Below, in pieces: positions 1,933-19,071 of a DNA stretch of 28,555 nt. Under the pieces are notes generated by a model. That model made no database searches, was not told the origin of the DNA, and worked only from the letters and a program-made list of their open reading frames with translations. Both the position numbers and the translations under genes were made by a program. Where the stretch lies: NCBI GenBank assembly GCA_002414505.1, contig DHZF01000126.1:1-28555 (forward strand). Reading direction: 5' to 3'. Origin of the DNA: Hyphomonas sp. UBA5111 (GTDB lineage Bacteria; Pseudomonadota; Alphaproteobacteria; Caulobacterales; Hyphomonadaceae). Each line of letters starts with the position of its first letter. The stretch's first letter is position 1.

Positions 1933-2262
1933 ATGTCGGGTTTGGTGATCAAGGGATGTGAGTACGATCCAATCGAGTCCAAGGATGTCGTCTATGGCGA
2001 TGGTTTCCGGATGGAGCTGGAACAGGCGATTGCGCTGGCCTCGACGGGCGTTGAATTCTGGGCCGCCGAGCGTGATGGTTCCGCCGCGCCCATCTCTGTC
2101 GCCAAGAATGAATATGGCGAACTGATCCTGAAGACCGAGCCGACGGCCTACGCCGCCAACCCGCTTGGCGAGATCAGCGCCCCACCGATCGTGCACCGCC
2201 GCTATCGCCCCGAAGCGCAGATGCCTGCACGGATCCATCCCGGTTACGCTGTCGCGGCCTAG
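1933..2262 (+). CDS. Small hypothetical protein, weakly DUF3892-like
   Basis: The predicted protein has 109 residues, is acidic to neutral, and has no signal peptide or membrane segment. A GAGGGG ribosome binding site lies about 9 nt before the ATG, and 160 bp of AT-rich, promoter-like DNA precede it. Residues about 28-80 (an EQAIALASTGVEF stretch, a short beta-rich part, then LKTEP and a NPLGEI turn) recall the small DUF3892 fold seen in stand-alone proteins of unknown role. That resemblance is from memory and is weak. The His/Arg/Pro-rich tail is not conserved in anything I recognise. A foldable 123-bp element begins 11 nt after the stop codon. Confidence 0.7.
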   Translation: MSGLVIKGCEYDPIESKDVVYGDGFRMELEQAIALASTGVEFWAAERDGSAAPISVAKNEYGELILKTEPTAYAANPLGEISAPPIVHRRYRPEAQMPARIHPGYAVAA

Positions 2263-2273
2263 TCACGCAGCGG

Positions 2274-2396
2274 CCCCTACCCTTTACATGTTTCCTTGCC
2301 TGACGCGTCTCCACACCCACTCTCCAGGCGCGCAGGATTGATCCGGCCTCACCTGACCGGATCGGAGGGGTCACACCAGCATGTGAAGGGTGGGGG
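2274..2396 (+). other. 123-bp structured element (candidate ncRNA, 3'-UTR structure or MITE-like repeat)
   Basis: The two ends pair along 17 bp (2274-2290 with 2380-2396). Inside lie two more helices: 2299-2307 with 2329-2336 (8 bp around a bulged A at 2303) and 2340-2346 with 2357-2363 (GATCCGG/CCGGATC, 7 bp). Together they make a three-way junction. The two imperfect positions of the outer helix (2278/2392 and 2285/2385) are U-G wobbles if the + strand is transcribed but A-C mismatches on the other strand, so a + strand RNA fits better. The right arm ends at the base before the direct repeat at 2397. No target-site duplication is evident. Its function is unknown. Confidence 0.5.
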
Positions 2397-2413
2397 TTAC
2401 TCCGCCTCCAGAT
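2397..2413. repeat. Direct repeat, copy 1 (distal copy of mccA 3' end)
   Basis: TTACTCCGCCTCCAGAT here is identical over 17 bp to 3345-3361, where it encodes the last codons and the stop of mccA. This copy lies 7 nt beyond the stop codon of the DUF4268 gene and is not part of any gene. The flanking bases differ on both sides (g/t and t/g), so the repeat is exactly 17 bp. Confidence 0.9.
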
Positions 2414-2420
2414 TAATTTG

Positions 2421-3341
2421 TTAATTGATAGCGTTTAAGGCTAAACTATATTCATTCAGACGCTTGTTTAACCACGAAGACAGCTCGGCCCAATTCGAAG
2501 GATCAGTATAATTCCCAGCGTGACTATCGATGTAAAAGTACCCTCCGGAACTGCCTGCATCGATCGTTATTCCAAGACTACGCTCTAAAGAATATTTGTG
2601 TGGCTCCAGCAAGGCACGCACTTCCTCCGGAGAAACATTTTCAAATCCTCGAATGAATAGCCCAACCTCGTTTTTCGCGATATAATAACTGACAACTAGT
2701 CCGAGATCAGTGAATTTGCGCCATCTGTTCGATGCGCCGCCAGCGCTGCCGTCCGCTTCATTTTCGGGATAATACTCTAAAAAGTACTCCCAGAAACTTC
2801 TACGCCTCACACCCTCTGGACTTAATTGTTTAGTTGCCCGAGTGACACTCTGCAGTCTTCGCTCCCAAGAGTTTGGTTTTTCTAGAACTTCGAAAAGCGG
2901 CGCATACCTACTGTCTTCGATTCGAACTACTCGTGCACGTACGGCAAAGAACGAGAATTCTTCGGCGGTGCTTTCATTCAGCCATTTCATCGCCGCCAAA
3001 TGCGCTTCTCTGAATGATGACGCGACCCAAATGACAGTTTTGGCCTCGAGTCCGGCTAGATATGTCAGAATTTGCCCAAGGTGTCTGTGATCAGACATTT
3101 CCAGCTGGTTTTCTATCAGAATATTTGAATTATCCTGCGTGTTTCTAGCAAGTATGTCAGCGGAAAAATAATCGTCGTGAGTTGGCAGCCCTGCTTCAGC
3201 CTTTATTAGTTCTAACTGAAGCCCAATAACCTCTCCTATACGGTCTAGGTTGTCGGCAAGCCACGGAGTAAAGTTTTTTGCTTCATCTGCCCATGCATCT
3301 CGTACTGATACGTCAGACAGCCTTCCAAATTCTTTTGACAT
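2421..3341 (-). CDS. DUF4268 protein, PD-(D/E)XK nuclease-like
   Basis: A 306-residue soluble protein. The stretch with D62 (ADILA), then IENQ at 76-79, then HLGQILTYLAGL at about 87-98 and KTVIWVA at 101-107, is typical of DUF4268 proteins. These look like restriction-endonuclease folds with a D...E-x-Q active site in place of E-x-K, and they often occur in defence or accessory regions. The C-terminal third (about 200-306) is the DUF4268 part proper. The ATG lies 3 nt after the mccA stop, and the purine-rich GGAGGCGGAG serving as its ribosome binding site is inside the last mccA codons, so translation should be coupled to mccA. GC is far below the neighbours. The real substrate is unknown; a DNA-targeting or defence role is inference. 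Confidence 0.85.
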   Translation of the reverse strand: MSKEFGRLSDVSVRDAWADEAKNFTPWLADNLDRIGEVIGLQLELIKAEAGLPTHDDYFSADILARNTQDNSNILIENQLEMSDHRHLGQILTYLAGLEAKTVIWVASSFREAHLAAMKWLNESTAEEFSFFAVRARVVRIEDSRYAPLFEVLEKPNSWERRLQSVTRATKQLSPEGVRRRSFWEYFLEYYPENEADGSAGGASNRWRKFTDLGLVVSYYIAKNEVGLFIRGFENVSPEEVRALLEPHKYSLERSLGITIDAGSSGGYFYIDSHAGNYTDPSNWAELSSWLNKRLNEYSLALNAIN

Positions 3342-3344
3342 ACT

Positions 3345-3361
3345 TTACTCCGCCTCCAGAT
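3345..3361. repeat. Direct repeat, copy 2 (within mccA 3' end)
   Basis: This is the functional copy of the 17-bp repeat. Read on the minus strand it gives the codons for LEAE and the TAA stop of mccA and carries the GGAGGCGGAG that precedes the DUF4268 ATG at 3341. It is identical to 2397-2413. Confidence 0.9.
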
Positions 3362-5249
3362 GAACCAAAATATCGCCCTCGGCGACCTGGTCCCCCGCAG
3401 CAGCCTCCACGGCTTCTACCACCCCATCGCGCGGCGCCGGCAAGGTGTGTTCCATCTTCATCGCTTCCATCACCGCAACCGGATCGCCCTTGGTGACCGT
3501 ATCGCCCGGCTTCACATGTACGGCGAGCAGCTTGCCCGGCATCGGCGCGCTGACAGTGTCGCCACCCAGCACCGCTTCCACATCTGCGTCATAGTCCGGC
3601 ACCTCAACCAGCACCGTGTCGCCGCCGGTCGTGACCGCATAGCGGCGCGGCGAGATGTCTGTCACGAAAGGCAGCGGCGCGTCCGGATCGACCTCATGCT
3701 CTGACGGATCGAACCAGTCGGCATCGGTGCCTACGGCAATTGCGGCCTTGCGCACAGGCGAAGCGTTCGAGCGGAATCCGTCGCGGATTCCCCACGGCGT
3801 GATGGCGCCGGCATCATCCAGTTCAACATCACTCACCGCCAGAACAGACGCATGCTGATGTGCGGCGGGCGGATGGGTCAGCGCATCCCCCTGCTCCGCA
3901 ATCCAGTTCACATGATGCGTGCCTTCGCGGAAGGCCTCCGACAGGGCGCAGCGGCGCAGGAAGCCTGTATTGGCCGGCACGCCCGCCAGTTGTGTGTGCG
4001 CCAGCGTCTCGGTCAGCAAATCCACGGCGGCGTCGCGATCTTCTCCGTGCACGATCAGCTTTGCGATCATGGAATCATAGCTCGCCGGCACACGGTCGCC
4101 CGTCTCGAAGCCGGTATCCCAGCGGACCGTCTCGCCGTCAATCGGCTGCAACAGGCCGAATTCGAGGATCAGGCCCGCGCCGGGGCGGAAGCCATCGGCC
4201 GGGTCTTCGGCGCAGATGCGCGCCTCGATGGCATGGCCCATTAGCGGGATTTCGTCCTGCGCCAGCGGGATTTCCTCGCCGGAGGCCACCAGCAATTGCC
4301 AGGCGACAAGATCCTGCCCGGTAATCATCTCGGTGACCGGATGCTCCACCTGAAGCCGGGTGTTCATTTCAAGGAACCAGAATGTGTCGACGCCCAGCGG
4401 CTTGGACCCGTCCACGATGAATTCTACCGTGCCGGCCCCCTGATATCCAACAGCCTGCGCCAGTTTCACCGCCGCGTCCGTCATGGCCGCGCGCACCTCG
4501 TCCGGCATGCCGGGCGCAGGCGCTTCCTCGATGACTTTCTGACGGCGGCGCTGCAGCGAGCAATCGCGCTCATAGAGATGGACGACATTCCCATGTGCGT
4601 CGCCGAAGACCTGGACTTCGATATGGCGCGGCTGCTCGACCAGCTTTTCCAGCATGACCCGGCCATCGCCGAAGGAACTCTCGGCTTCGCGCACCGCGCT
4701 TTCGAGTTCGGCCTTCAGCTCGCCCGCCTTGGAGACAAGACGAATGCCGCGCCCCCCGCCCCCGGCGACCGCCTTGATCAGCAGCGGAAAGCCCACGCCT
4801 TTCGCGGCCTTGGCGAGCGTTTCGAGTTCCTGGCCTTCGCCGCGATAGCCGGGCAGCACGGGCACGCCCGCCTCTTCGGCAATGCGCTTGGCTTCATCTT
4901 TCGGGCCCAGGGACCGGATCGCCTTGGCGGACGGGCCGACCCAGATCAACCCGGCTGTCTCGACGGCTTCGGCGAAATCGGCATTCTCGGACAGGAAGCC
5001 ATAGCCCGGATGGATGGCATCGGCGCCGGTCGCCCTGGCCGCGGCAAGGATGGCCTCGACCTTGAGATAGCTTTCGGGCGCAGGCGACGGGCCGATATGG
5101 ATCGCCTCATCGGCCTCGCGCACATGTTTTGCGCGCGCATCGGCGTCGGAATAGACGGCGACCGTCGCAATACCGAGCCCACGGCAGGTCTCAAAAATGC
5201 GGCAGGCGATCTCGCCCCTATTCGCGACGAGCAGCTTCTGGATCTTCAA
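3345..5249 (-). CDS. mccA: 3-methylcrotonyl-CoA carboxylase, biotin-containing alpha subunit
   Basis: This subunit (LiuD) carboxylates biotin with ATP and bicarbonate and supplies CO2 to the beta subunit in leucine breakdown. The N-terminus LLVANRGEIACRIF opens the biotin carboxylase domain, followed by an ATP-grasp region (GGGGRGIRLV, then ERDCSLQRRRQKVIEEAPAP) to about residue 450. A linker follows, then a biotinyl domain with EAMKM, biotin on about Lys598. I place the start at TTG 5249: GGGAGGG lies 7 nt upstream and the protein then begins like its relatives, 634 residues long. ATG starts at 5285 or 5306 would add a Pro/Arg-rich tail inside the upstream gene. The reading frame overlaps the DUF817 gene, so coupling is likely. 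Assignment as MCC rather than another acyl-CoA carboxylase rests on liuA, liuB and liuC nearby. Confidence 0.93.
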   Translation of the reverse strand: MKIQKLLVANRGEIACRIFETCRGLGIATVAVYSDADARAKHVREADEAIHIGPSPAPESYLKVEAILAAARATGADAIHPGYGFLSENADFAEAVETAGLIWVGPSAKAIRSLGPKDEAKRIAEEAGVPVLPGYRGEGQELETLAKAAKGVGFPLLIKAVAGGGGRGIRLVSKAGELKAELESAVREAESSFGDGRVMLEKLVEQPRHIEVQVFGDAHGNVVHLYERDCSLQRRRQKVIEEAPAPGMPDEVRAAMTDAAVKLAQAVGYQGAGTVEFIVDGSKPLGVDTFWFLEMNTRLQVEHPVTEMITGQDLVAWQLLVASGEEIPLAQDEIPLMGHAIEARICAEDPADGFRPGAGLILEFGLLQPIDGETVRWDTGFETGDRVPASYDSMIAKLIVHGEDRDAAVDLLTETLAHTQLAGVPANTGFLRRCALSEAFREGTHHVNWIAEQGDALTHPPAAHQHASVLAVSDVELDDAGAITPWGIRDGFRSNASPVRKAAIAVGTDADWFDPSEHEVDPDAPLPFVTDISPRRYAVTTGGDTVLVEVPDYDADVEAVLGGDTVSAPMPGKLLAVHVKPGDTVTKGDPVAVMEAMKMEHTLPAPRDGVVEAVEAAAGDQVAEGDILVHLEAE

Positions 5250-6123
5250 TGCGTGGCCCTCCCGGCGCCCGGTGGGCTTTGCCATGTACGGCCGCCACCA
5301 GGACAAAACTGATTATCATCAGCAGATACCATGATCCGAGTTTCGATAAAGAGACCATCTGCCAGCCATGCTCTTGCCCGGGATAGGCCCAGGCACGGGC
5401 GAATGTTCCAAGATTTTCGGCAAACCAGATGAAGATTGCCACCAGCCCGAAGCCGATCACGAGCGGCATCGGCCGGTGCGCCTCATCGGCGCGAAACCAG
5501 ACCATGCTGGGCCCGTAAACCATCGCTATGCCCACGAACAGGGCAATCCGGACATCCGGCAGCCAGTGATGCGCGAAGAAATTCACATAGATCGCCGTCG
5601 CCAGCAGGCCCTGCAGCCAGAGCGGCGGGAACCGGTCGAACCGGAACTCGAAGATACGCCAGACCCGCGCAAGATAGGAGCCCACCGCGCCATACATGAA
5701 GCCCGTGAACAGCGGCACCGCGCCGATGCGCAGGAAACTGTCTTCCGGATAGATCCAGCTGCCATGCGCGGTCTTGAACAGCTCCATCACCGTGCCGACG
5801 ACATGGAAGACGAGAATGATCCTCGCCTCCTCCCAGGTCTCGAGGCCCGTCCAGAGCATCATGATCTGGATGGCGAGCGCGCCGAGCACGAGGAAATCAT
5901 AGCGCGAGAGGCGCGCGCCGTCCGGATACCAGGCAAAGGTGAGCAAAAGCAGGCCCAGCATCAGGCCGCCAAACAGGCACGCCCAGCCCTGCTTGATGCC
6001 GAAGGCAATGAATTCAAAGACCGCCTGACTGACCGGTCCGGTCACGTAACGGGCATGCAGGGCCGCGCGGGCGGCATGCAGGCGCTGCTGGGCGCGCGTC
6101 GGGGCAGGTTTTGGTGTCTCCAT
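5218..6123 (-). CDS. DUF817 family integral membrane protein
   Basis: A 301-residue inner-membrane protein with about eight hydrophobic segments and conserved polar motifs such as TGLETWEEAR, the GSWIYPE turn, FTGFMYG, and NFFAHHWLPD. These match the DUF817 family (Bacillus YoaT-like), whose function is unknown. The start is taken at ATG 6123, just after a purine-rich AGAAGAGGGG; a TTG at 6144 would add seven residues but has no ribosome binding site. Its 3' end overlaps the start of mccA by 32 nt, so the two are probably translated from one mRNA. No link between DUF817 and leucine metabolism is established. Confidence 0.85.
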   Translation of the reverse strand: METPKPAPTRAQQRLHAARAALHARYVTGPVSQAVFEFIAFGIKQGWACLFGGLMLGLLLLTFAWYPDGARLSRYDFLVLGALAIQIMMLWTGLETWEEARIILVFHVVGTVMELFKTAHGSWIYPEDSFLRIGAVPLFTGFMYGAVGSYLARVWRIFEFRFDRFPPLWLQGLLATAIYVNFFAHHWLPDVRIALFVGIAMVYGPSMVWFRADEAHRPMPLVIGFGLVAIFIWFAENLGTFARAWAYPGQEHGWQMVSLSKLGSWYLLMIISFVLVAAVHGKAHRAPGGPRIEDPEAARRE

Positions 6124-11343: not shown

Positions 11344-13140
11344 ATGGGCATGTTCTTCAACATGGGCATTGATATCACTCCCCGCCTGCGGGCCATCGAA
11401 TTCCTGAAGGATGTCCCGCGCCGGGCCATGAAGGCCGCCGGCAAGGAAGCCGACTGGTTTTCCCTTCCGGCCGGCAAGCCGCTCTACCTCGCGGGCGAGC
11501 CCGCAGACACGCTCTATTTCGTCCTGTCCGGCACGCTGGGCATCTTCCGCGAAGGCCCGCACGGCAAGACCGAATTCGTGGGCCATATCCGCTCCGGCGA
11601 ACCGGCGGGCGAGATGTCCCTTTTCCTGGGCGGGGTGGACCTGACCGGCGACGGCCAGCCGAATGATGCCCCGCACACCAGCTCGGTCTACGCCCTGCGC
11701 GACACCGAACTCGTCGGCGTCTCCCGCAAGGGATGGGACCGGATGGTCCGCGCCGAGCCGGAACTGCTGGAAGCGATGATCCGGGTGATCCTGCTTCGCC
11801 TCGGCAAGTCCGGCGACCGGGTGGCGAGCGCCGCGCCGAAAGTGTTCACGCTGGTGGCGACGTCTCCCACGATTGACCTCAAACTGCGCGCCCGGTCCCT
11901 GAAGCAGGCGCTCGAACGCCTCGGCCGCAAGGCCATCATCGTGGACGAGAAGATGGGCGACGAGCGACCCGCCGCCTATTTCGACGAGCTGGAACGCACG
12001 CATGATGTGGTGATCCTGATCTCGGCCATCGGGGACAATGCCTGGTACCGCCTGTCGATGCGCCAGGCCGACCGGATCTGGGTCGTTGGCCGCGCTGATG
12101 CGCGCCCGTCCAATCCGCTGATGCCGGATGACCAATCCCCTGCCCGCGCGCTGAAACTGGTCGATGTCCTGCTGCTGCATCACAGCGACGAGCGTCAGGG
12201 CGCCAAGCCCGCCCAATGGATGGCGGCCTCCGGCGCGACCCGCGTCTTCCACTGGAGCCGGGTCGAAGGCCAGGACTGCGACCGGCTGGCCCGGATCATG
12301 GCCGGCGTGTCGGTCGGACTGATCCTGTCCGGCGGCGGCGCACGCGCCTATTCCCATATCGGCGTCGTCCGGGCGATGCGCGAACTGGGCCTGCCGATCG
12401 ACTTTGTGGGCGGCGCCTCGATGGGATCGGTCATCGCGGCCTGTGTCGCCATGGGCTGGAGCGATGATGAAATCGAGATGCGTATCCGCAAGGCCTTTGT
12501 CGACAGCAATCCGCTTGGGGACTATCACCTTCCCGTGGTCGGCATGGTCAAGGGCGCACGCGTGAATGCGCGGCTCAAGGAACATTTTGGAGAGGCCGAG
12601 ATCGGCGATCTCCACCTGCCCTTCTTCTGCACGTCCACCAACCTCACCACCGGCTCGACCCGCATCCATCGCGAAGGCCTGCTACGCGAGGCCCTGCGGG
12701 CCACAATCTCGCTGCCGGGCATCCTGCCGCCGGTCGTGGACGGCAAGGATTTGCTGGTCGATGGCGCTGTGCTGAACAATTTCCCGGCGGACATCATGCG
12801 CGACCTGCATCGCGGCTTTGTCGTCGGATCTGATGTCACGCGCCAGCCAGAAAATATCGACCTTGAAGAGTTTTCAGAACCCCCGGGCTTTTTCCGCTGG
12901 GTGTTCAATAATGGCTTTTCCAGCCCGCCGCCGATTGCGGGCCTGTTGATGCGAACAGCAACGATCCGTGCCGATACAAAGTTCGGACATGACATGGCCG
13001 ACGTGCTGGTGCTGCCCCAACTGGCTGACGTCCAGCTGCGCGACTGGAAGGCCTATGACGAAACCGTCCAGGCTGGCTATGTCGCCACGATGAAGGCTTT
13101 CGAAGGTACGAAGATCAAGGAAAAGTGCTGTCCGGCCTAG
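11344..13140 (+). CDS. NTE-type patatin-like phospholipase with cyclic-nucleotide-binding domain
   Basis: The 598-residue protein has three parts. Residues about 30-150 form a cNMP-binding beta-roll (GEPAGEMSLF as the phosphate cassette). About 165-310 is the intermediate region seen in neuropathy-target-esterase relatives (WYRLSMRQADRIWVVGR). About 322-500 is the patatin hydrolase. The oxyanion loop GGGAR is at 330-334, the nucleophile Ser359 in GASMG, and Asp473 in DGA completes the dyad. It likely hydrolyses (lyso)phospholipids at the membrane face. A ribosome binding site (AAGGGA) lies before the ATG. It has no evident link to leucine catabolism other than sharing a promoter region with liuB. 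Confidence 0.92.
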   Translation: MGMFFNMGIDITPRLRAIEFLKDVPRRAMKAAGKEADWFSLPAGKPLYLAGEPADTLYFVLSGTLGIFREGPHGKTEFVGHIRSGEPAGEMSLFLGGVDLTGDGQPNDAPHTSSVYALRDTELVGVSRKGWDRMVRAEPELLEAMIRVILLRLGKSGDRVASAAPKVFTLVATSPTIDLKLRARSLKQALERLGRKAIIVDEKMGDERPAAYFDELERTHDVVILISAIGDNAWYRLSMRQADRIWVVGRADARPSNPLMPDDQSPARALKLVDVLLLHHSDERQGAKPAQWMAASGATRVFHWSRVEGQDCDRLARIMAGVSVGLILSGGGARAYSHIGVVRAMRELGLPIDFVGGASMGSVIAACVAMGWSDDEIEMRIRKAFVDSNPLGDYHLPVVGMVKGARVNARLKEHFGEAEIGDLHLPFFCTSTNLTTGSTRIHREGLLREALRATISLPGILPPVVDGKDLLVDGAVLNNFPADIMRDLHRGFVVGSDVTRQPENIDLEEFSEPPGFFRWVFNNGFSSPPPIAGLLMRTATIRADTKFGHDMADVLVLPQLADVQLRDWKAYDETVQAGYVATMKAFEGTKIKEKCCPA

Positions 13141-13149
13141 AGCTTTTAC

Positions 13150-13162
13150 CAAGCCGTTCCGC
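13150..13162. repeat. Imperfect direct repeat, copy 1 (near GNAT 3' end)
   Basis: CAAGCCGTTCCGC here matches CAAGCCGTTTCGC at 13704-13716 in 12 of 13 positions. This copy lies 4 nt beyond the GNAT stop codon, outside any gene, while the other copy forms the 3' end of liuA. Confidence 0.5.
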
Positions 13163-13166
13163 GCGA

Positions 13167-13700
13167 TCAGTCAGAAACAGGCTTCGACGGTGCGCTGAGG
13201 TCGCCAGAAACATTGGACAAGCGTTTTTGCCACCAACCAACATCATGCCAAGCGTCTAGCTTGTAGCCAACATTGCGATACGTTCCGAGATGCTCGAACC
13301 CTAGACGCTCATGCAGGGTAACGCTGGGGACATTCGGCAGGGCAATTCCAGCGAAGGCATTGTGAAACCCTTGACGTTTCAAAACCTCCAGCAATTCGAT
13401 GTACAGGCGCTGTCCAACATTCCGACGCCGTGCGACCGGCGCAACGTATACGCTGACATCGCATGACCATTGATAAGCCGCGCGTGCTCTGTGCGATGAC
13501 GCATAGGCATAGCCCAATGGCTGACCATTTTCTTCTGCCGCGAGCCAAGGAAATGTCTCAAGAGTGGTCTGTATACGCTCCGCCATTTCACTCACCGATG
13601 GCGGGGTCAGTTCAAATGAAATGACCGTTTCTTCAACAATCGGTGCGTAGATATCTGTAATCCATCCGGCATCTTCAGGTGCTGCCAAACGGATGTCCAT
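13167..13700 (-). CDS. GNAT N-acetyltransferase, phosphinothricin-acetyltransferase-like
   Basis: A 177-residue GNAT enzyme using acetyl-CoA on the amino group of a small molecule. YAYASSHRARAAYQWSCDVS, VYVAPVARRRNVGQRLYIEL and the C-terminal GYKLDAWHDVGWW are the hallmarks of the Pat/YncA (MnaT) subgroup, which acts on phosphinothricin or methionine sulfone and sulfoximine. The acetyl-CoA loop reads RRRNVG, with Asn where RRxGxG normally has Gly. ATG 13700 lies 2 nt after the liuA stop, with no good ribosome binding site, so it depends on coupling to liuA. Its GC (about 52%) is roughly ten points below its neighbours, and an imperfect direct repeat flanks it, both pointing to acquisition. 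Confidence 0.88.
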   Translation of the reverse strand: MDIRLAAPEDAGWITDIYAPIVEETVISFELTPPSVSEMAERIQTTLETFPWLAAEENGQPLGYAYASSHRARAAYQWSCDVSVYVAPVARRRNVGQRLYIELLEVLKRQGFHNAFAGIALPNVPSVTLHERLGFEHLGTYRNVGYKLDAWHDVGWWQKRLSNVSGDLSAPSKPVSD

Positions 13701-13702
13701 AT

Positions 13703-17592: not shown

Positions 17593-17714
17593 GGGGCCTC
17601 TCTTGCCGGGGTTACGATGCGTCGGCAAGAACCGAATACGTTGAGCTAGCCGGGATTCGCAGGAATCTCACAGGGTGCCCACAGCAGAGTCTGGAACAGG
17701 TGAATTGACCCGTG

Positions 17715-18143
17715 TCAGCGCAGGCGCCTCAAGCCCGCTGTGAGCTGGGACAAGCCATCCTCGCGCAATCGGCCTTCAATTCGGTCCTGAACCTCCTTCC
17801 AGAGCGGATAGGCCTCCTCCAGACGGCGTACCCCAAGCGTGGTGAGCAATAGGCGACGGCGCCGACCATCTCCCTCCTCTCCCCGAAAGATTAGACCGGC
17901 CTTCTCCAGCGGCTTCAGATTGCGGGACAGGGTGGTACGCTCCAAGGCAAGCAAATCTGCCAGCTCCGAAATGGAATCGGGCTCAAACCGGCCTACCGCA
18001 TTCAAAAGCCCGAACTGGGCAATGGTCAGGTCAACAGGGCGCAAGGCGTCGTCATACTCGCGTGTAATGCGCCTGGCCGCACGCAGCACGCGGCCAGCCG
18101 TACAGCGCTGGGTCACATCTTCATGAATTCTTGTTTGGTCCAT
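17715..18143 (-). CDS. MarR family transcriptional regulator
   Basis: A 142-residue winged-helix dimer-type regulator. DLTIAQFGLLNAV, then SISELADLLALERTTLSRNLKPLEKAGLI as the recognition helix-turn-helix and EGDGRRRRLLLTTLG as the wing are clear MarR features. I take ATG 18143. A GTG at 18158 directly abuts the AGGAGG and so has poor spacing, while the ATG has long spacing, so the start is uncertain. A perfect palindromic box (18147-18158) lies right at the start region, which suggests autorepression. It is divergent from the TPR gene, whose leader carries the same box. The ligand is unknown. Confidence 0.88.
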   Translation of the reverse strand: MDQTRIHEDVTQRCTAGRVLRAARRITREYDDALRPVDLTIAQFGLLNAVGRFEPDSISELADLLALERTTLSRNLKPLEKAGLIFRGEEGDGRRRRLLLTTLGVRRLEEAYPLWKEVQDRIEGRLREDGLSQLTAGLRRLR

Positions 18144-18146
18144 AGC

Positions 18147-18158
18147 GTGTAGATACAC
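18147..18158. promoter_or_regulatory. Palindromic box GTGTA-N2-TACAC at the MarR gene start
   Basis: GTGTAGATACAC is a perfect 5-bp inverted repeat with a 2-bp centre, just upstream of the MarR ATG and abutting its AGGAGG. The same half-sites recur at 18360-18371. Likely the operator of this MarR protein (inference). Confidence 0.55.
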
Positions 18159-18234
18159 CCTCCTTTCGAAACTTCAAACACATCAGTAAATCTAACACAC
18201 CCATTCCAAGGCGCCCCATTGATTCCCCCATATA

Positions 18235-18246
18235 GTGCATATACAT
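18235..18246. promoter_or_regulatory. Degenerate third box and candidate + strand promoter
   Basis: GTGCATATACAT differs from the GTGTA-N2-TACAC boxes by one base in each half-site. It overlaps a possible + strand promoter: TTGATT at 18219-18224, 17 nt, TACATT at 18242-18247. Both readings are weak alone. Together with the downstream terminator they suggest a short transcript starting near 18254. Confidence 0.3.
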
Positions 18247-18253
18247 TACTTAT

Positions 18254-18338
18254 GTCGCTGGCGTCTCTCTACAACAGTCAGTTTCCCGTGATCCAGTGAC
18301 ACACTTCCGCCCGGCACACCCTGTCGGGCGGCCTTTTC
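18254..18338 (+). ncRNA. Candidate small RNA ending at an orphan terminator
   Basis: A clear + strand intrinsic terminator (18307-18338) lies in an intergenic region with no + strand gene before it. A candidate promoter at 18219-18247 would give a transcript of about 85 nt. It is either a small RNA or an attenuated leader of the TPR gene. No family is recognised. Confidence 0.35.
18307..18338 (+). terminator. Orphan intrinsic terminator in the MarR/TPR intergenic region
   Basis: CCGCCCG at 18307-18313 pairs perfectly with CGGGCGG at 18325-18331, followed by CCTTTTCT. It lies 49 nt upstream of the TPR gene start, on the same strand. Confidence 0.6.
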
Positions 18339-18359
18339 TGGATGCATACATCCTATATC

Positions 18360-18371
18360 GTGTACTTACAC
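18360..18371. promoter_or_regulatory. Palindromic box GTGTA-N2-TACAC upstream of the TPR gene
   Basis: GTGTACTTACAC repeats the half-sites and spacing of the box at the MarR start. It lies 15 nt before the TPR-gene ATG, just beyond a TATATC sequence that could be the -10 element, a repressing position. Confidence 0.55.
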
Positions 18372-18386
18372 TATTGGAGTTTCAAC

Positions 18387-18992
18387 ATGAAACCTGCCGT
18401 CCCAGCCTTTTTGCTCTCCGCCCTTTTCAGCATTTCCACTCCCCATGCCGGCGCCAGCCCGGATGTCTACAGATCCAGCCCGGCCGAGTTATGCGCAACA
18501 GAACTCGGGCACTACTCTGAGGCCACGTTGCGCCTCCAGCGGCTGTGCGATGCGGGCGCAAAGCAGTCAGACCTGACGCTGAGCGGCCGCGCTGCCGCCC
18601 AAGCAAATGCGGGCACAGTCCGCATCAGGCGAGGCGACCTTGAAGGCGCCGCACGCCTGTTGTCCGAAGCCCATGCCATGCGCGGCGCCTCTGCCGATAT
18701 CGCCATCAGCCTCAGTGCGGTGCTGATACGACTGGAGCGCTATGACGAGGCCGTCCTGGCACTGGCAGACCTGGATCAGGTGTCAGAAGAATTGCGGCAC
18801 AAGGCGCTCTACAATCGCGCCACGGCCGAATTGCAGCGCAACAATGTCGAGGCAGCCTATGTCGATTTGCGCAAGACGGTCCAACTGGCACCGGATTTTG
18901 TTCCGGCGCAGGACATGTTGAAGCAATTCAAGGTGACGCCCCACACACTTACGGCTGATGCGCAAGACGGCACCAGAAATGGACAGCCTTGA
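18387..18992 (+). CDS. Secreted tetratricopeptide-repeat protein
   Basis: Start at ATG 18387, with TTGGAG 8 nt upstream, giving 201 residues; the longer frame from 18342 runs through the operator box. Residues 1-23 are a signal peptide ending near AGA. A Cys pair (about Cys37 and Cys54) and helical TPR-like units follow (about 70-175), with the recurring pattern AxxxxRxGDLEGAARLLSEA and RYDEAVLALADL. TPR domains bind partner proteins, and this one would do so in the periplasm. It is divergent from a MarR gene and shares its box, so it may be that regulator's target. No specific role can be given. Confidence 0.85.
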   Translation: MKPAVPAFLLSALFSISTPHAGASPDVYRSSPAELCATELGHYSEATLRLQRLCDAGAKQSDLTLSGRAAAQANAGTVRIRRGDLEGAARLLSEAHAMRGASADIAISLSAVLIRLERYDEAVLALADLDQVSEELRHKALYNRATAELQRNNVEAAYVDLRKTVQLAPDFVPAQDMLKQFKVTPHTLTADAQDGTRNGQP

Positions 18993-19071
18993 GCCCGATC
19001 CATCGCACAAAAGCCGTGTGTGAAATTCAGACAGTCATCAAATGTTTCAGCGAAGCTGGAACGATTGAAAA

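Follow-up and report, generated by a model that had tools for sequence, protein, structure and literature searches.

Insertion of a lone PDC-S11 gene, with a 17-bp target duplication, behind the stop codon of an mccA-like gene in Hyphomonas

We analysed a stretch of 28,555 nucleotides from Hyphomonas sp. UBA5111 (assembly GCA_002414505.1, contig DHZF01000126.1, positions 1 to 28,555 of the forward strand), which is called the window here. Genomes are designated by G numbers, the window's own genome being G000, and loci by L numbers. On the minus strand the window carries an intact gene for an acyl-CoA carboxylase subunit (3345..5252), whose product ends in the same C-terminus, HLEAE, as those of L003 and L005. 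The full open reading frame extends over 3345-5306 (653 aa), and the 635 aa from the start codon used here served as query for relatives. Biotin carboxylase and biotin carrier domains were detected with Pfam. No NCBIfam cut-off was reached, and the name mccA, also given by the initial annotation, comes from context. The gene is therefore referred to as the mccA-like host gene. Behind it, again on the minus strand, lies a gene of the PDC-S11 family (2421-3341, 921 bp, 306 aa), termed the cargo gene. The cargo gene is placed between two identical 17-mers, repeat copy 1 at 3345-3361 and repeat copy 2 at 2397-2413, both read on the minus strand. Repeat copy 2 marks the distal end of the target duplication. 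The foot of a strong imperfect hairpin, predicted at 2274..2396 between the convergent genes, directly abuts it. Beyond the insertion an open reading frame of 109 aa runs convergently on the plus strand (1933..2262). No Pfam family was found for it, and its DNA aligns with G026 and G003.

The direct repeat, ATCTGGAGGCGGAGTAA on the minus strand, is identical in 17/17 positions, and over 20 nt the two copies agree at 95%. The distance from start to start is 948. Copy 1 consists of the final codons and the stop codon of the host frame, as had been noticed from the sequence before. The boundaries are exact. Three nucleotides separate the host stop from the cargo ATG, again in agreement with the earlier reading, and 7 nt lie between the cargo stop codon and copy 2. 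When up to two mismatches were allowed, the 17-mer was found in G000 at these two places only. The composition of the cargo gene is foreign. Its GC content of 45.8% (GC3 42%) is far lower than the 64.9% (GC3 76%) of the host gene, as the initial annotation had claimed, and this deviation was the largest among the 87 cellular family loci with enough flanking sequence. Between the repeats, the frames of at least 80 aa were the cargo gene and an 82-aa frame on the opposite strand. No integrase gene was found inside the unit, where the cargo gene is the only long frame. Likewise, no inverted repeats of at least 12 bp involving the insert were detected, and a comparison of the insert ends in register gave matches at 9/40 places, so that the ends are not alike. 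The earlier statement that recombinase and terminal inverted repeats are absent was thus borne out.

The host protein was searched in 61 genomes, and 30 loci were fetched, the window's own included; many of the compared genomes are drafts. In L003 (G026) and L007 (G025) the 17-mer occurred once and without change, followed by CCCCCACCC as behind copy 2. In L004 (G003) the site was also present once, with one substitution in the 17-mer. An empty site with a single copy of the repeat, which had been proposed as a check, was thus found in related genomes. The stretch missing at the empty site of the relatives comprises 948 bp (2397..3344, minus strand), that is, the cargo gene, the 3 and 7 flanking nucleotides and one repeat copy. 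Alignment of the window to G026 gave 95.2% identity up to base 2416 and 94.3% from base 3345, and the two blocks overlap by 20 nt in G026. The same two blocks were obtained with G003, which aligns through to the window end at 85.8%, gaps included. The cargo gene is a single-gene insertion that kept the host gene intact, and in this the initial annotation was right. One could still suspect an assembly artefact that joined a foreign 931-bp stretch into the contig, since G000 is a draft of 162 contigs and 83% completeness. Yet both junctions are internal to a 47.8-kb contig, the flanking sequence on either side aligns to G026 at about 95%, and an erroneous join would have had to create the same 17-mer at two junctions. 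We hold such an artefact to be most improbable. Elsewhere in the window, two segments (13139-13702 and 17686-19026) did not align to G026 and were spanned by the G003 alignment; they likely reflect a replacement and a deletion in G026.

Within the genus a family gene was detected at E 1e-10 or better in 1/42 genomes, namely the window's own. In the taxonomic family 3/105 genomes had one. Wider, overlapping draws yielded 15/398 genomes with a family gene in the order, 20/385 in the class and 11/398 in the phylum. The tree of the host gene contained 30 rows and was rooted at the midpoint; 16 rows could be scored for the site and 14 had other sequence behind the gene. The window was placed beside G026 and then G003. 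The compact site was seen in G026, G003 and G025 and in 6/8 rows of the next clade. Given this distribution the compact site is most likely ancestral, the root being a midpoint root only. Because the site is single in the close relatives and the gene is present in the window's own genome only among the 42 of the genus, we conclude that a 948-bp insertion with target duplication took place recently.

A unit bounded by direct repeats could also be the relic of a larger element, such as an island or a phage satellite, that made the 17-bp duplication and then lost all but one gene. In line with this idea, family members were seen on plasmids (63 records) and viral contigs (49 loci). However, the deletions would need to have left just 3 nt ahead of the ATG and 7 nt behind the stop codon, no remnant of another gene was seen, and the gene was absent from every other genome of the genus that was searched (42 including its own). 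Such a relic is improbable in our judgement.

The cargo protein matched the PADLOC family PDC-S11, a phage defence candidate, with an E value of 1.7e-85 over residues 1-303 of 306, and no difference from this family was seen. The label DUF4268 that had been assigned at first did not hold. Pfam DUF4268 (PF14088) scored 17.0 bits (E 0.006) on the cargo protein, below the gathering cut-off of 27, and two relatives, L234 and L040, passed this cut-off. A PD-(D/E)XK nuclease domain is predicted at about residues 7-160, followed by a DUF4268-like C-terminal part. The predicted structure contains the PD-(D/E)XK core fold, with EndoMS, AspBHI and FokI as nearest structures. With Foldseek alone, the PDB yielded no match at an E value of 0.001 or below, and the best match of a PDB sequence search with the cargo protein had an E value of 0.53. 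D62 and E77-x-Q79 were invariant in 45 sequences, with Q in place of the K of the D...(D/E)xK motif. From this conservation, D62, E77 and Q79 would be the catalytic residues. The protein would cut DNA and probably act in phage defence. NCBIfam matches that pointed to an acyl-CoA synthetase were far below cut-off, and this assignment was rejected. The closest protein relative has 70% identity, and the nearest one with a named organism is from Hyphomonas oceanitis (60%). DUF4268 has been described as occurring with restriction proteins and in GmrSD type IV restriction fusions (PMC4619093). The C-terminal part of the cargo protein resembles the DUF4268 of these fusions, but it stays under the Pfam cut-off, and the cargo protein had no DUF262 or DUF1524 match.

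We next turn to the genomic surroundings of other PDC-S11 genes, for which neighbours were called mechanically as longest open reading frames; many of these loci end within 3 kb. A same-strand upstream neighbour was present in 75/95 cellular loci, the window included, and in 39/75 the gap ranged from -30 to +10 nt. Among 94 relatives, 25 had an upstream res-like gene (as in L056, L064 or L033, these three included), 10 had a downstream mod-like gene (as in L056 or L064), and 8 had both. In L056 and L064 the upstream gene reaches the Pfam ResIII cut-off, and the downstream gene has an MTase_III match at E 0. In L038 and L043 the PDC-S11 gene lies behind a type I specificity gene. From the tight gaps and the res- and mod-like neighbours it follows that PDC-S11 genes are often part of restriction-like operons, in tight overlap with their neighbours. 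Eight loci (L056, L057, L064, L067, L074, L087, L089 and L090) show a three-gene operon of a ResIII-type protein, PDC-S11 and a type III methyltransferase. The ResIII-type protein has about 1,000 aa or more and is cut by the locus end. In this arrangement PDC-S11 may be an additional subunit of a restriction system resembling type III.

Lone copies were also seen behind ordinary genes. In L040 (G307, a related genus) the inserted PDC-S11 gene (1132-2136) separates murB from a Mur ligase gene, which is taken as murC from its position. There is a 4-nt overlap, and the GC content of the PDC-S11 gene is 13 points below that of its flanks. In 11/28 other loci of that genus the site is empty, the end of the Mur ligase gene adjoining murB directly, as judged by eye, and the rest carry other sequence. 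No long repeat flanks the murC/murB insertion, which indicates that a duplication is not obligatory. In L117 the PDC-S11 gene starts 2 nt after fusA, and in L114 it starts 2 nt after a gene for an MgsA-type ATPase.

The occurrence of flanking repeats was then determined for the family. The set comprised 181 family genes (176 distinct sequences), made up of the window, the order, genome-contig, viral, class and phylum searches and 8 plasmid places of 40 listed. Of these loci, 173 had 150 bp on both sides and were tested, and 8 were skipped. Exact flanking repeats of at least 15 bp were found in the window (17 bp), L234 (27 bp) and L107 (45 bp) only. L107 is a tandem array of paralogs, in which four shifted controls all exceeded 15 bp, and it was taken out of the main count. 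The remaining loci gave 2/172 with a repeat, compared with 0/1,096 shifted controls (one-sided Fisher p 0.018). As the window had prompted the test, it was also left out, and 1/171 loci remained. An earlier control set with other shifts contained 1/974 outside L107 that reached 20 bp (L124). With mismatches allowed (150-bp flanks, score of at least 17), 3/138 loci were positive against 6/948 controls. A first scan with 100-bp flanks and 138 loci had revealed only the window and L107, and L234 came from the later class scan. We conclude that the PDC-S11 family has no significant habit of flanking repeats. Chance as the origin of the 17-bp repeat is ruled out by the shifted controls and by the two places of the 17-mer in G000. 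The initial annotation had reasoned that the repeat would be a local accident if relatives had no empty site, or if family genes elsewhere had no flanking repeats. Empty sites do exist, whereas nearly all other family genes tested are without a repeat.

In L234 the 27-bp repeat is perfect, and its 23-nt core occurs in that genome at those two places only, with up to three mismatches allowed. This repeat is not due to chance. The stop of a deaminase-like gene, whose Pfam score falls just short of the cut-off, precedes it by 7 nt, and the end of a convergent HxlR gene follows. The search for an empty site matched the upstream gene in 2/5 genomes of the taxonomic family, its own included, and G792 (77%) differs behind the gene.

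Further repeats were examined and set aside. The array in L107 (1108-5028, Dehalococcoidia genome) holds at least four PDC-S11 paralogs with shared leaders and looks like the growth of an array of a defence-candidate gene. The exact repeat of 303 bp in L111, seen with 400-bp flanks and thus outside the 150-bp test, corresponds to two identical tandem gene copies (2977-5124), each behind the same 3' piece of the neighbouring gene; this may be a recent duplication or an assembly effect. An imperfect 36-nt repeat in L119 was rejected as a dispersed repeat, since the motif occurs three times in the 6.9-kb locus. These intergenic repeats (2910, 4032 and 5321), on a Bacteroidales contig with PDC-S11 between two of them, look like a cassette-like or regulatory series. 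In L159 and L054 the repeats obtained with 400-bp flanks lie inside neighbouring frames, apparently paralogous by eye.

The initial annotation had offered a homing-like event driven by the nuclease itself. In such an event the enzyme would have cleaved the host gene at its end and placed a copy of the cargo gene there. The predicted PD-(D/E)XK fold would suit such an activity. Homing by way of gene conversion leaves no target duplication, and homing endonuclease genes occupy the same site across relatives. Here, in contrast, a 17-bp duplication is present, and the relatives adjoin many different genes, many of them in restriction-like operons. Moreover, flanking repeats are rare in the family, as the 1/171 other loci demonstrate. 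We regard self-driven homing as very improbable.

Folding of the predicted hairpin behind the insertion gave -58.0 kcal/mol on one strand and -63.2 kcal/mol on the other. Long hairpins with altered bases were likewise obtained for four relatives. In six species of the genus (L005, L006, L008, L009, L011 and L015) the host stop and the hairpin foot are separated by additional and largely unrelated sequence. The extra bases amount to 121 in G013, 105 in G009 and 122 in G017. Just ahead of the foot, 8, 6 and 8 nt, respectively, are the same as at the gene end (CGGAGTAA, GAGTAA and CGGAGTAA). These short matches read as possible remnants of a duplication. In G020, with 99 extra bases, the gene-end match was 2 nt only. 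G033 and G004 have about 170 extra bases each, in which no copy of the gene end was seen by eye. On the host gene tree the group of G020, G013, G009 and G017 requires at least two changes. The G013 stretch was found at one place in G013 and had no BLAST match in five other genomes searched, so that a dispersed repeat was ruled out (one place in 6 genomes); the stretches of G009 and G017 are partly similar to it by eye. The spot thus appears prone to insertion, with a possible duplication in part of the cases only. Intergenic stretches gain insertions and deletions anyway, and this weakens the reading of the extra sequence in the relatives.

Integrative elements and phages often integrate at the 3' ends of genes. 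If a tyrosine or serine recombinase had acted in trans and used the 17 bp at the host gene's end as its attachment core, this would fit the position of the repeat, the regenerated gene end, the discrete unit and the other material at the same spot in relatives. Against this, the unit contains no integrase and offers just 3 and 7 nt beyond the open reading frame for arm sites. The 17-mer has no further place in G000 within two mismatches, the G013 stretch is present once and unmatched by BLAST in the five other genomes (the partial similarity of G009 and G017 by eye notwithstanding), and the repeat of L234 is an unrelated 27-mer. We consider a recombinase in trans unlikely.

We favour, as somewhat better than an even guess, that the lone PDC-S11 gene was inserted behind the stop codon of the mccA-like gene by functions of the cell, likely through break repair or template switching at the hairpin foot and without a recombinase of its own. 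If a fragment was captured in a staggered break and both sides were then filled in, the 17-bp duplication would result. Alternatively, a template switch during replication that copied the last 17 bases once more would give the same product. The predicted hairpin would be a plausible cause of the break or the stall. No donor is known, the best protein relative having 70% identity, and homology at the junctions can thus not be read. It seems rather doubtful that PDC-S11 is instead a minimal mobile gene, free of recombinase, terminal repeats and att site, that spreads as its product cuts host DNA in a staggered fashion, fill-in then producing target copies that differ in length (17 bp in the window, 27 bp in L234), and that is kept where it has come to lie directly behind a host stop.

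PDC-S11 genes likely travel without a promoter of their own, because the gene often overlaps its upstream gene. Repeat copy 1 places GGAG 6 nt before the cargo ATG, and the end of the host gene therefore probably serves as the cargo ribosome binding site. The cargo start is placed such that the repeated purine run GGAGGCGGAG can act in this way, in agreement with the earlier prediction from the sequence. The cargo gene would then be translated from the host transcript, ahead of the hairpin.

The initial annotation had found no known process that resembles this insertion. Yet reports since 2000 describe restriction-modification genes that entered by insertion with long target duplication (Nobusato et al. 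2000; Furuta et al. 2010, as referred to in papers citing them), with published duplications on the order of 100 bp. In common with the present case are a defence-type unit without its own recombinase, a direct repeat derived from the target and an empty site in a close relative. In contrast, the duplication here is 17 bp (27 bp in L234, a possible second case), and the unit is a lone nuclease-family gene without a methyltransferase. In addition, it follows a stop codon, and its predicted ribosome binding site comes from the duplication. A complex of restriction-modification genes as the inserted unit is frequent but not obligatory in the published pattern, and many relatives of the cargo gene reside in type III restriction-like operons. 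Because of the 17 bp and the lone gene we describe the window case as apparently working like insertion with long target duplication, on a smaller scale, and do not file it as a member. According to a review, some restriction systems seem to have individually mobile component genes. The passages on DUF4268 and, in a survey, on PDC-S11 make no mention of mobility. In Arabidopsis, whole genes have been reported as transposed and flanked by direct repeats, mostly of host non-transposon sequence, and these repeats are often present at the orthologous empty site (PMC2869330). The Arabidopsis cases differ in that they concern a plant genome, in that many repeats exceed 30 bp, and in that recombination of circles is discussed for them. 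Our case is set apart by the lone nuclease gene, the short duplication that supplies a predicted ribosome binding site, and the spot beside a predicted hairpin with other inserts in relatives. A further difference is a second bare insertion, between murC and murB in a related genus, which has no long repeat.

The case presented here bears on the movement of defence genes without a visible mobile element. It offers a young insertion with empty sites, exact boundaries and a single gene. It suggests that a component of restriction-like operons can travel alone. It further suggests that such a gene can gain immediate expression from its position after a host stop codon, since the predicted ribosome binding site comes with the duplication. 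A second landing of this kind in the PDC-S11 family is the murC/murB case, and both sites make the insertion of bare restriction-type genes testable in a laboratory strain.
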